32,760 nt of DNA, taken from a virus. Of the stretch, positions 19,857 to 23,602 are shown piece by piece; positions within the stretch are counted from its first letter, which is position 1, and each line of letters opens with the position of its first letter. A program made the translations under genes and the position numbers. Under the pieces are notes generated by a model that had not been told where the DNA came from, did no database searches, and worked only from the letters and a program-made list of their open reading frames with translations. The stretch covers positions 1-32,760 of IMG/VR virus record IMGVR_UViG_3300037485_000435; one strand, written 5' to 3'.

Positions 19857-19983
19857 ATTCAAGCTGCATAGCAAAGCTAAATGGCAAGATGCCTATAGAG
19901 TGCTGCAAGCTAATAGCAGAGAGGATGCAATCAAGAAGGCTGATATGTGGCCGCCATTAATTAAAGCAGTGCAAGAGATATGA
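19831..19983 (+). CDS. 50-residue early protein, unknown
   Basis: This frame starts within the preceding gene and ends with an ATGA overlap with the next. The product has a beta-strand-like start (MKTFKITYRFKL), then a helical ANSREDAIKKADM segment. The strand-then-helix outline with REDAIKKA is common in small phage proteins of about 50 residues with unknown function. It lies between a membrane protein and a DnaA-like protein. Confidence 0.5.
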   Translation: MKTFKITYRFKLHSKAKWQDAYRVLQANSREDAIKKADMWPPLIKAVQEI

Positions 19984-20399
19984 ACACATCAATGATTATG
20001 GATCTAGCTGAGAAGCATGGTCTCAAAGTAAGGAATAGAAAGAGAGAGCTGGTGTACAAGAGATACTATCTCTGGTCAGAGCTGCGAAGATGGCACAGTC
20101 TTTCAGCCATTGGTGAAATGTTTAATATGGATCACTGTTCAGTATTGCATGGACTCAAGCAGCACAATGTGTGGATGAAGGCCAAAGATTATGAATATCT
20201 GAAGACAATCAATGAGCTGCACAAGGAAGTACATGAAGATTATCTGATTGATATGGAGGATGAAAAGGTATGGATGTATGTGGATAATATATCAGGCAAC
20301 ACAGTTACTTTGACAATCAAGCTCAATACAGACGATTCTAGCCACTTTCTCAATAGGAATGGATACATAACTAAGGAAGACTTAAAAGAATTGATATGA
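19980..20399 (+). CDS. DnaA domain IV-like DNA-binding protein
   Basis: This 139-residue protein contains a stretch that resembles the DNA-binding domain IV of the replication initiator DnaA: HSLSAIGEMFNMDHCSVLHGLKQ (about residues 39-61), where MDHCSVLHG corresponds to the RDHTTVLHA signature of DnaA. There is no ATPase domain. The C-terminal half (about 80-139) is an unrelated acidic region. The gene lies about 250 bp before a cluster of repeated AATCGG motifs, which are possible binding sites. It may recognise the origin, recruit or compete with host DnaA, or act as a regulator. Confidence 0.65.
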   Translation: MNTSMIMDLAEKHGLKVRNRKRELVYKRYYLWSELRRWHSLSAIGEMFNMDHCSVLHGLKQHNVWMKAKDYEYLKTINELHKEVHEDYLIDMEDEKVWMYVDNISGNTVTLTIKLNTDDSSHFLNRNGYITKEDLKELI

Positions 20400-20650
20400 G
20401 GAACAAAATAAGACGAATGTCGGCTATTGTATATTGCCTTCAACAAAGAGCATACACAATTGAAAGACTGCACAGCAAAGTAAATCACATTCTATCCGAT
20501 AACTTTAGTAAGTCATCCATTGAGAAAGATATGTTTATGCTTAGAGAAGAGTTTGATTGTCCAATTGAAAGATGCACATCTGGCTTGATTATCATTGAGG
20601 ATTATGATTTCATTTCAAAGCTCACAGAATGGGTGCAGCTGTATGAATAA
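20396..20650 (+). CDS. Winged-helix-type small regulator candidate
   Basis: This 84-residue protein reads like the HTH part of DeoR/WYL-type regulators: a basic first helix (RNKIRRMSAIVYCLQQRAYT), a second helix IERLHSKVNHIL, a recognition-type helix with SKSSIEKDMFMLREEF and a wing-like FDCPIERCTSGLIIIEDY. No effector domain is present. It is the last gene before the repeat-bearing control region, making it a candidate to bind those repeats and regulate the early promoter at 20836-20864. It is coupled to the upstream gene through ATGA. Confidence 0.55.
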   Translation: MRNKIRRMSAIVYCLQQRAYTIERLHSKVNHILSDNFSKSSIEKDMFMLREEFDCPIERCTSGLIIIEDYDFISKLTEWVQLYE

Positions 20651-20656
20651 TCTGAT

Positions 20657-20834
20657 TGCCGATTACATCACTCCCTATTCTATATATATTTATTTTTTTT
20701 AGAAATGGTAAAAAAACATTTTTTTCAAAAAACTGCAAAAAAGATTGGAAAATCGGCTGTTGATTGATTATCAATAAGTTACAAGAGAAATAAATCGGCA
20801 GTAAATCGGATGTATAAAAATAAATCGGCAGTGA
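20657..20834. repeat. Cluster of AATCGG repeats (iteron/operator-like)
   Basis: Four forward copies of an AAATCGG core followed by CTG, CAG or ATG lie at 20750-20760, 20791-20801, 20802-20812 and 20821-20831, and one inverted copy of AATCGGCA lies at 20657-20664. Copies two and three are directly adjacent (11-bp step). The last ends 4 bases before the -33 element of the promoter. The spacers are very AT-rich with long A and T runs (20686-20745). This fits a replication origin with iterons, an operator array, or both. The rest of 20651-20969 holds the promoter and a leader RNA. Confidence 0.7.
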
Positions 20835-20835
20835 A

Positions 20836-20864
20836 TTGACTTTAAAAAAATTTATTTACATTTG
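20836..20864 (+). promoter_or_regulatory. Bacteroidetes-type promoter of replication operon
   Basis: TTG (20836-20838) and TACATTTG (20857-20864) with an 18-base spacer match the phylum consensus within its known range. Transcription should start near 20871, far upstream (about 100 bases) of the first ATG at 20970. The repeat ending at 20831 touches the -33 region, so a bound protein could block or activate the promoter. Confidence 0.8.
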
Positions 20865-20870
20865 CATATC

Positions 20871-20952
20871 CTATGCCGAGGATTAGAAAGAACATTATTT
20901 AAAGCTCTTTCGGTTAGTAGTGCGGCATCACGAACACTGAGAGGGCTTTTTT
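20871..20952 (+). ncRNA. Structured leader or small RNA with terminator
   Basis: Between promoter and first gene lies an RNA of about 80 bases. Its 3' half is a hairpin: 20901-20911 (AAAGCTCTTTC) pairs over 11 positions, two of them G-U, with 20939-20949 (GAGAGGGCTTT), followed by Ts at 20947-20952. The loop holds CGGCAT (20923-20928), flanked by GTG and CAC, and this is perfectly complementary to ATGCCG at the very 5' end (20873-20878), allowing a pseudoknot. It could be an independent small RNA or an attenuator controlling the replication genes. Confidence 0.6.
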
Positions 20953-20969: not shown

Positions 20970-21230
20970 ATGAAACATGTAAGAACTGATGGTTCAGGGA
21001 TGAACTATCAAAATGAAAGAATGACAACTTTATCAAACTTTATCAAGCATTCTGCTATAATTGATGATAATAAAATTGACTTGCTAAAGGATCACAAAGG
21101 TGACTTAGAGGTGTACTGGAATGAGATGCCACTATCTCATGAGAAAAAATCTATTAATGCTTTATGGGAATACTTGAATGAGTACATTGTCACTCATTAT
21201 TTAGTAACTAAAAGCATTGAAGAGATATGA
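20970..21230 (+). CDS. Early protein upstream of primase, unknown
   Basis: This 86-residue acidic, helical protein is the first gene after the structured leader and overlaps the primase-helicase start by 4 bases (ATGA). The frame extends up to a TTG at 20862, but that lies in the promoter and the leader hairpin, so I take ATG 20970; ATG 21000 is possible too. Recognisable segments are MTTLSNFIKHSAIIDDNKID and SINALWEYLNEYIVTHYL. No known family. The position suggests a replication accessory role. Confidence 0.55.
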   Translation: MKHVRTDGSGMNYQNERMTTLSNFIKHSAIIDDNKIDLLKDHKGDLEVYWNEMPLSHEKKSINALWEYLNEYIVTHYLVTKSIEEI

Positions 21231-23602
21231 TATCAATCTATAAATCAGTACAGCAAACTTTTGATAAAAACTACATCAGTGTAGAAACAGCCATTGAAAG
21301 AATAAAGAACAGCAGATACAAGGATCGCATCCTAAAGATGAGAACTCTTGGAAAGGATGATTATACCAGTGAGAAAAACAAACTACCAGTCTACAGATGG
21401 TCCGGTATCTTTGAGTATGGCAATGATGCTGGAATCAAAACTCATTCAGGCTTAATTTGTTTAGACTTTGACAAGTATCCAAGTGATGAGGTAATGTCAG
21501 ATCACAGAAAGAAACTGTGCTCAGATCCTTATGTTTACATTCTGTTTACATCCCCATCAGGCAAAGGACTGAAAGTAGTAGTAAAGATTACAGATGTAAT
21601 TGAGAATCACAGAAAGCACTTTCTATCTTTAAAGAATCACTTTGATTCTGAATACTGGGATAACAGCTCAATCAATATATCTAGGAATTGTTTTGATTCT
21701 TATGATCCGTACATCTATGTCAACAATAATAGTGAGGTATATCTGAGCATCATTGAAGAGGTAGAAGATATTGATGTCACTTATGTGGCCACAATACCAA
21801 TGAGGTCAACCAATAAGATTATTCAGAACATACAAAAGTGGTTTGATTCTAAGTACCAGCTGTCAGAAGGCAACAGAAACAACAGCTTTTTTAACCTGGC
21901 ATCAGCATTCAATAGGTATGGGATTCAACAAAGTGAATGTGAGAACTATATCCTAACTAATTATGTGGATGTGCTTGGAAGAGATGAGCTGTTACAGTGC
22001 ATCAAGTCAGGATATAGAGATAAGTCAGGCTTTGGTACATCACAATTTGAAGACAAAGAGATAATTAACTACGTCAAGAATGAACTCAAGCAAGGTGAAA
22101 AACCTAAGACAATCAAGTCTAAACTGAAAGAATACTCAGAGGATGAGGTTGAAATCATAATGGACAAGGCTGAGAGTGAACTAAAAAACTTTTGGAGGAA
22201 AAATGATAAGGGCAAAGTTAGTCTATCACCTACTTTGTACAGAGACTTTCTTGCTGAAAATGGTTTTTTCAAGTATCATAATTCAGAGCTCTCATATTTG
22301 TTCGTAAAAGTTGAAAACAATTTTGTAAAAGAAATCAATGAGGATCTGATAAAAGATTTTGTACTGGACCATGTAGAGAAGCAAGGTGATCCAGTCATCT
22401 TTGACTTCATGGCATCAGTTACAAAGTATTTTAAACGTGACTTTCTGAGCTATATGAAATCAAAGGATGTTGATTTTATCAGAGATGTTAAAGACAAAGC
22501 ATATCTATTCTATAAAAATTGTCTTGTTGAAATCACTGCGGACTCAGTAGAAGAGAAACAATATGTGGACTTCATTCAACATGTTTGGGATAAGCAAGTA
22601 ATAGATAGAGAATATAAAAAGGCTACCACTAAATGTGACTTTCAACAGTTTATTTTCAACATCAGCAAGACTCAAGATAGATATGATTCATTCAGATCAG
22701 TGATCGGTTACATGCTGCATACTTATAAGAATCCATATTTCTCTCCAGCTATTATCCTAAATGATGAGGATATATCTGACAATCCCCAGGGAGGAACTGG
22801 AAAGGGTATAGTCACTGAAGCTCTAAGTAAGTTTAAAAATACATGTACTATCAATGGAAAGAACTTTGATCCATCAAAAGACTTTGCATTTCAGAGAGTC
22901 AGCCTTGATACTCAGATTCTTATATTTGATGACGTAAATGAAAACTTTGACTTTGAAAAGCTATTCAGTATTGTAACTGATGGGATGCCAGTCAACAAGA
23001 AAAACAAGGATGAGTTTTTTATTGAGAAAGATAGAACTCCTAAGATTGCCATCCCTACAAATTATGTTTTGAAAGGGGAAGGTAATTCTCATGAACGTAG
23101 AAAGTTTGAGATTGAGCTTCATAATTATTATGACAAAAAGTTTACACCATATCATGACTTTGGTAGGAACTTGTTTTATGATTGGGATCAATCTGAATGG
23201 TCAAAGTTTGACAACTTTATGATTGAATGTGTACAGTATTATTTACAGAATGGAATAGTGAATTATGTTTCAGTCAACTTAGATGAGAAGAGATTGATGT
23301 CAGAGATAGGTCATGACTTCTACAGCTGGATAAATGAGAATATGAAATTCAATGAAAGAATGGTTCTTAAAGATATGTTTGAGAAATTCTGTGAACACTA
23401 TCCAACATATAGAAAATTCAGCCAAAAATATACATCAGGCAGAATCAGAAAGTATGGCGATTATCTTGTGAAAAAAGGTAAACTCACAAGGGTGGAATCA
23501 GGCAAGCAGAATGGATCTATCCCATACATTGAATATGTCACTGATCAGAAGAAAGAATCTGAGTGGGATAATTTACAAACAATTGATAAAGCACCTTTTT
23601 AA
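21227..23602 (+). CDS. Primase-helicase (BT4734/VirE_N-like plus SF3-like)
   Basis: This 791-residue replication protein combines a primase-type N-terminus with an ATPase. Residues 55-120 match the BT4734-like/VirE N-terminal family, with LICLDFDKY (Asp80, Asp82 as likely metal ligands) and LFTSPSGKGLKVVVK. Residues 195-260 form a helical domain typical after prim-pol cores. The C-terminal part is an SF3/D5-like helicase: Walker A QGGTGKG (521-527), Walker B ILIFDDV (564-570), and PKIAIPTNYVL (605-615) with a sensor Asn, then HERRKFEI. The residue after the Walker A Lys is Gly rather than Ser or Thr. It should unwind and prime phage DNA, probably from the nearby repeat region. Confidence 0.85.
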   Translation: MISIYKSVQQTFDKNYISVETAIERIKNSRYKDRILKMRTLGKDDYTSEKNKLPVYRWSGIFEYGNDAGIKTHSGLICLDFDKYPSDEVMSDHRKKLCSDPYVYILFTSPSGKGLKVVVKITDVIENHRKHFLSLKNHFDSEYWDNSSINISRNCFDSYDPYIYVNNNSEVYLSIIEEVEDIDVTYVATIPMRSTNKIIQNIQKWFDSKYQLSEGNRNNSFFNLASAFNRYGIQQSECENYILTNYVDVLGRDELLQCIKSGYRDKSGFGTSQFEDKEIINYVKNELKQGEKPKTIKSKLKEYSEDEVEIIMDKAESELKNFWRKNDKGKVSLSPTLYRDFLAENGFFKYHNSELSYLFVKVENNFVKEINEDLIKDFVLDHVEKQGDPVIFDFMASVTKYFKRDFLSYMKSKDVDFIRDVKDKAYLFYKNCLVEITADSVEEKQYVDFIQHVWDKQVIDREYKKATTKCDFQQFIFNISKTQDRYDSFRSVIGYMLHTYKNPYFSPAIILNDEDISDNPQGGTGKGIVTEALSKFKNTCTINGKNFDPSKDFAFQRVSLDTQILIFDDVNENFDFEKLFSIVTDGMPVNKKNKDEFFIEKDRTPKIAIPTNYVLKGEGNSHERRKFEIELHNYYDKKFTPYHDFGRNLFYDWDQSEWSKFDNFMIECVQYYLQNGIVNYVSVNLDEKRLMSEIGHDFYSWINENMKFNERMVLKDMFEKFCEHYPTYRKFSQKYTSGRIRKYGDYLVKKGKLTRVESGKQNGSIPYIEYVTDQKKESEWDNLQTIDKAPF

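Follow-up and report, generated by a model that had tools for sequence, protein, structure and literature searches.

The window (the whole stretch of viral DNA that was analyzed, 32,760 nucleotides) contains a promoter that leads not into a gene but into about 80 bases with a terminator-like hairpin and a T-run, and the question raised by this locus is what such an RNA does directly ahead of a set of replication genes. An initial annotation had described this arrangement, and all of its elements were found where it had placed them or a few bases away.

Promoter, hairpins, and genes of the leader

The features of the locus in the window are as follows.

20836-20838, plus strand: -33 promoter element TTG, spaced as in the Bacteroidetes consensus (PMC7366714)
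20857-20864, plus strand: -7 promoter element TACATTTG, which fits the consensus TAnnTTTG; box position from PMC9723704, predicted start at about 20869
20869-20882, plus strand: 5' hairpin A, stem UCCU/AGGA; compensatory changes in 4 of 4 pairs
20873-20878, plus strand: loop AUGCCG of hairpin A, one side of the kissing helix; exact complement of 20923-20928, with covariation
20884-20900, plus strand: A/U-rich linker of about 18 nt, single-stranded; unpaired in the fold and partly invariant in the alignment
20901-20949, plus strand: terminator-like hairpin T, outer stem 20901-20914/20936-20949, inner stem 20920-20922/20929-20931, internal loop UAGUA/GAAC
20923-20928, plus strand: loop CGGCAU of hairpin T, other side of the kissing helix; complementarity and covariation
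20947-20952, plus strand: U-tract (six U) of the predicted intrinsic terminator
20970-21230, plus strand: 86-aa open reading frame (ORF), first gene after the leader; also in relative L008 and absent from the other aligned primase relatives
21227-23602, plus strand: primase-type replication protein, 791 aa, with BT4734-like_N, PriCT_1, and weak DUF5906 matches

The promoter had been called a consensus one. A promoter is indeed present, but it is of the Bacteroidetes type, and a sigma-70 scan of the window did not flag it because Bacteroidetes use the -7 box TAnnTTTG. In Flavobacterium, this box lies at -12 to -5 (PMC9723704), which would place the +1 position of the leader at about 20869 and make the TTG the -33 element. 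The Bacteroidetes consensus combines a -33 element with a preference for a purine at the start (PMC7366714), and 20868 is therefore equally possible as +1.

The predicted 5' end of the RNA reads UCCU[AUGCCG]AGGA, in which 20869-20872 pair with 20879-20882 and an extra A-U pair is possible at 20868/20883. The exact complementarity of ATGCCG to the CGGCAT of the terminator loop was confirmed. The pairing itself thus stood, but what had been described as a pseudoknot between the 5' end and a loop is better described as a kissing-loop contact from hairpin to hairpin, since ATGCCG is itself a hairpin loop. Likewise, the terminator hairpin was present, although its 11 positions were an undercount: the outer stem has 14 pairs with G-U included, and the inner stem has 3. 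The predicted fold of hairpin T (-21 kcal/mol) was only mildly better than those of shuffled sequences (z = -2.07), and the case therefore rests on relatives. The internal loop, as AGUA/GAA (20915-20919/20932-20935), fits a bulged-G (loop E) motif that is kept in most lineages; in L361-type members, which have the inner stem CCG/CGG, this motif is replaced and the kissing pairing is still there.

The first ATG lies 19 to 40 nt past the core of hairpin T in 57 leaders, namely those followed by an ATG-started ORF of at least 60 aa. The first genes encode primases, a DnaD-like helicase loader/replication initiation protein, DUF6291 proteins, and sometimes an HNH endonuclease; the 86-aa ORF of the window had no Pfam or PHROG match and a pN/pS of about 0.56 against L008. 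This position before replication genes is conserved, which bears out the proposed tie between the leader and the replication operon. Nearly identical leaders precede different genes in L403, L407, and L433; in these relatives and in L406 and L432, the replication gene behind near-identical leaders differs, with an exchange point close to the start codon that suggests that the leader marks a module boundary. As the leader lies at the gene for initiation of phage DNA replication and persists when that gene is exchanged for another, it is probably a control on the timing or amount of phage replication.

Several further observations concern the neighborhood. In L344 (1819 onward) and L404, genes for HNH-type endonucleases lie directly 3' of the leader; they appear to have been inserted between the leader and the replication genes and to use the leader's copy of the 5' loop at the start codon (see below). 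Four AAATCGG repeats (20750, 20792, 20803, and 20822; stretch 20750-20828) adjoin the promoter upstream, with one other copy in the window, and resemble origin iterons or operator sites. Further upstream are genes for a 139-aa protein with a weak match to the DNA-binding C-terminal part of DnaA (19980-20399) and for an 84-aa protein (20396-20650). The DnaA-like gene remains in the neighborhood of the leader in many relatives but not in all.

Relatives and covariation of the two loops

Relatives were collected by several routes. With the 791-aa primase as a protein query, 20 viral contigs were retrieved. The 13 alignable leaders already had compensatory changes of the loops: ATGCCG/CGGCAT in the window, ATGCAG/CTGCAT in most, and ACGCCC/GGGCGT in L008. 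A pattern on the hairpin core that left the loop free then reached phages in which the gene order was unchanged and the primase was another one, of 742 aa, with ACGCAC/GTGCGT among their loops. It also reached the distant phage L150, whose 5' stem was wholly different yet compensated (GGGA/TCCC). The third route, a search with the upstream DnaA_C-like gene, added the lineages GTGCAG/CTGCAC (L340 and L344) and the 7-nt GTTGCAG/CTGCAAC (L347); some of the relatives found by this gene had no detectable copy of the leader. The DnaA_C-like route also gave L359, which combined the loops GGGCAT/ATGCCC with the inner stem GCG/CGC, and the L361-type members. A second pattern, again on the core, found 101 stretches of contigs, and each matching phage record had exactly one leader match. 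In total, 64 distinct leaders were obtained, which fell into 12 clusters at 80% identity; the contigs are partly redundant, the alignments are model guided, and the T loops are partly selected by pattern.

In an alignment of 9 sequences, 98.8% of the cells were paired, hairpin A had compensatory changes at all four pairs, and the kissing helix was fully paired (100%), three of its six pairs having changed on both sides. With 18 sequences, the paired fraction was 99.1%, both-sided changes occurred in 14 of 21 pairs, and none of 500 shuffles reached any of five measures. The kissing helix scored alone in these 18 sequences was 94.7% paired, and the misses came from two rows (L361 and L365) in which the 5' hairpin was misaligned. 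The largest alignment (61 sequences, 57 of them distinct) was 97.1% paired, compared with 28 to 55% for slid controls, and had both-sided changes in 18 of 21 pairs. Alignments fitted to a model lean towards that model, and therefore we also counted loops without an alignment. All 64 distinct leaders carried, after the TAnnTTTG promoter, a sequence exactly complementary to the T loop; for many of them, five letters of the T loop had been fixed by the search pattern, which left the 5' loop free in every case. The loops were 6 or 7 nt long and had nine different sequences. A descriptor scan of 168 TAnnTTTG motifs matched only true loci; the reversed control gave no match, and the complement control gave one true locus again. 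Covariance across relatives, which the initial annotation had named as a way to check its proposal, was strong in both stems and likewise in the pairing of the loops, and this across unrelated downstream genes. At the level of sequence, the matching base changes in many relatives show that the pairing between the loops has been kept by selection.

The leader also recurs in cultured phages. The leader model matched two Flavobacterium phages, with 41.8 bits for elemoE and a weak 28.8 bits for mumin6-4. Blastn then identified their relatives as well as Olleya phage Harreka_1, which scored 33.2 bits with the leader model. Harreka_1 has the loops GTGGTGG/CCACCAC and the AGUA/GAA internal loop. The loop pairs of the elemo and mumin phages (GTGGAGG/CCTCCAC in elemoE, TGAGAGC/GCTCTCA in elemoA, GTGGAACG/CGTTCCAC in mumin, and GTGAGACG/CGTCTCAC in filifjonk) were read by eye, those of mumin and elemoE also by the descriptor scan, a basis other than covariation. 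The elemo and mumin leaders are more diverged and have the same layout, and we place them tentatively in the same family. The proposal that the RNA could tie its own 5' end into the terminator loop is supported by both the covariation and this recurrence.

Covariance and pattern searches of about 395 Bacteroidota genomes each, which were sampled and loosely filtered and had few candidates scored per genome in the large searches, gave only ordinary flavobacterial terminators or nothing; prophage copies of the leader may exist. A looser genome pattern was dropped because its counts were like those of its control. The matches listed for a pattern built from the loop pair of the window all looked like chance, those listed for a 5'-hairpin pattern included the known loci again, and the descriptor scan run afterwards showed no new loci. 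A scan of genome contigs gave 29 matches, and none of the 7 inspected had such a promoter and terminator. Blastn of the window leader against phages and plasmids returned nothing meaningful, and we found no description of the leader RNA in open-access papers. Taken as sequence evidence, the leader points to an undescribed RNA control of replication genes in Bacteroidetes phages, and it adds a structured RNA family, outside Rfam, to environmental and cultured phages of this group. Few riboregulators are known in Bacteroidetes, and these bacteria make little use of Shine-Dalgarno sites.

Proposed mechanism and alternative readings

We consider it likely, with a probability of about two in three, that this conserved, promoter-proximal leader attenuates the phage replication operon in cis through its kissing loops. 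The order promoter, structured leader with an intrinsic-terminator-like hairpin, and operon directly after it is that of an attenuator leader. The sequences themselves show the promoter motif, the hairpins, the covarying kissing helix, the conserved place before replication genes, and the third loop copy described below; the start and stop of transcription, the action in cis, the sense in which the genes are regulated, and whatever tips the balance are inferred. Transcription would start at about 20869, and the first 14 nt or so would fold into hairpin A. Once the apical part of hairpin T had left the polymerase, its 6-nt loop would pair with loop A, and closure of hairpin T would then yield a terminator joined to the 5' end of the transcript that carries it. 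Most transcripts would end at about 20952 as a compact RNA of about 80 nt, the replication genes would be reached by read-through transcripts only, and the leader would in this way limit or time their expression in cis. In nascent-RNA folds that lacked the 3' arm of hairpin T, most representatives had the two loops paired to one another, and a search for a conserved antiterminator helix found none; the AGTAGTG...CACGAA core was taken as standard in every representative in these folds, so that L359, L361, and L394 were folded with a slightly altered core.

An additional layer is possible in part of the family. Of the 64 leaders, 42 have a third copy of the 5' loop, situated past the terminator and ahead of the start codon, compared with 0 of 64 for each of the reversed, complemented, and reverse-complemented controls, and this copy tracked the changes of the loop (AATGCAG, ATGCAG, GGGCAT, GTGCAG, and GTTGCAG). 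In several lineages, this copy is again a hairpin loop, on a stem of at least four pairs that reaches towards the start codon, and the start codon then often lies in or beside the 3' arm. The GTTGCAG-type copy does not fall in a good hairpin and overlaps what may be an alternative start (ATGTTGCAGATG), which makes the exact start codon uncertain. The third copy was absent in the window, its close group, Harreka_1, and several other clusters. Since it lies at the start codon, the T loop could choose between two partners, and in these relatives (not in the window) pairing with either one would add a translational switch. We therefore propose, with less than even confidence, a three-part RNA switch in which the terminator loop toggles between identical partners at the 5' end and at the start codon of the replication initiator. 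If this is true, one loop couples transcription termination to translation in a portable cassette that is kept while phages swap the replication gene, and the window has a reduced form without the start-codon partner.

A simple strong terminator that yields a stable RNA would look the same as an attenuator in the sequences. The RNA could be mainly a free, stable small RNA that acts in trans on host or phage targets, with the kissing contact shielding its ends from nucleases, a strong terminator ending it, and the downstream genes served by read-through or by other promoters. The complete promoter-to-terminator unit of about 80 nt, the compact fold predicted across lineages, and the lack of a conserved antiterminator fit such an RNA. 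However, the leader stays 19 to 40 nt before the first ATG though the gene is exchanged, and the start-codon copy of loop A ties the RNA to its own mRNA. In addition, the loop sequences vary freely provided that they can still pair with each other, and neither loop therefore fits one fixed target in trans. Position favors a leader in cis, and we regard the free small RNA as unlikely.

Two hairpins in tertiary contact straight after a phage promoter also recall the put RNAs, and the leader could be a processive antitermination element that modifies the polymerase from the nascent transcript, with its terminator as the first one to be overcome. This is quite improbable, because the second hairpin has its own U-tract, which put sites are not known to have. 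We give even less weight to pairing of the loops between molecules, which would join head to tail as dimers or rings and serve in structure or replication. Fully complementary loops would allow this equally well, but the 18-nt linker can by a rough estimate span the stacked rod, so that pairing within one molecule is feasible and favored by proximity, and the positions of the promoter and genes suggest a leader function. Finally, an ordinary terminator with chance complementarity, to which the weakness of a lone 6-mer match in one sequence, the modest fold score, and the scoring of generic flavobacterial terminators against the leader model might point, is refuted by the covariation, with every helix compensated in many lineages and exact loop pairs in every distinct leader, whereas the bacterial terminator matches lack the kissing and loop-E parts.

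Comparison with known RNA families and systems

The initial annotation could name no known RNA family for the leader, and this held: no Rfam family matches it. With Rfam 15, the loci of ten relatives had no match at the gathering score, and the window stretch had two matches, both below threshold. The better of these was L10_leader (RF00557), which is on the right strand and in the right place, with UGCCGAGG plus the terminator in the window stretch. It was rejected, as it reached 24.7 bits where the gathering score is 44, the letters that match are not constant among relatives, and no L10 gene was identified nearby. A type III toxin-antitoxin RNA was also rejected, as the region has no tandem pseudoknot repeats and mostly replication genes lie downstream.

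Like the phi29 pRNA, the leader is a phage RNA with mutually complementary hairpin loops. The pRNA is longer, acts in packaging, and pairs its loops between molecules, whereas the present RNA leads replication genes. With the put RNAs of phage HK022, it shares two hairpins directly after a phage promoter; put is not known to act as a terminator or to have a U-tract of its own. Where the third copy is present, the T loop can pair at the start codon, as in pseudoknots and switches that mask a start codon to repress translation, but here the partner is the terminator loop, for which an identical copy at the 5' end would compete, and the window lacks the start-codon copy. Attenuators with intrinsic terminators and riboswitch leaders likewise have a promoter-proximal structured 5' untranslated region, an intrinsic terminator just before the operon, and a loop-loop contact in the leader. 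In contrast to these, the phage leader has no leader peptide and no conserved antiterminator that we could find, and its terminator loop itself pairs with a hairpin right at the 5' terminus.
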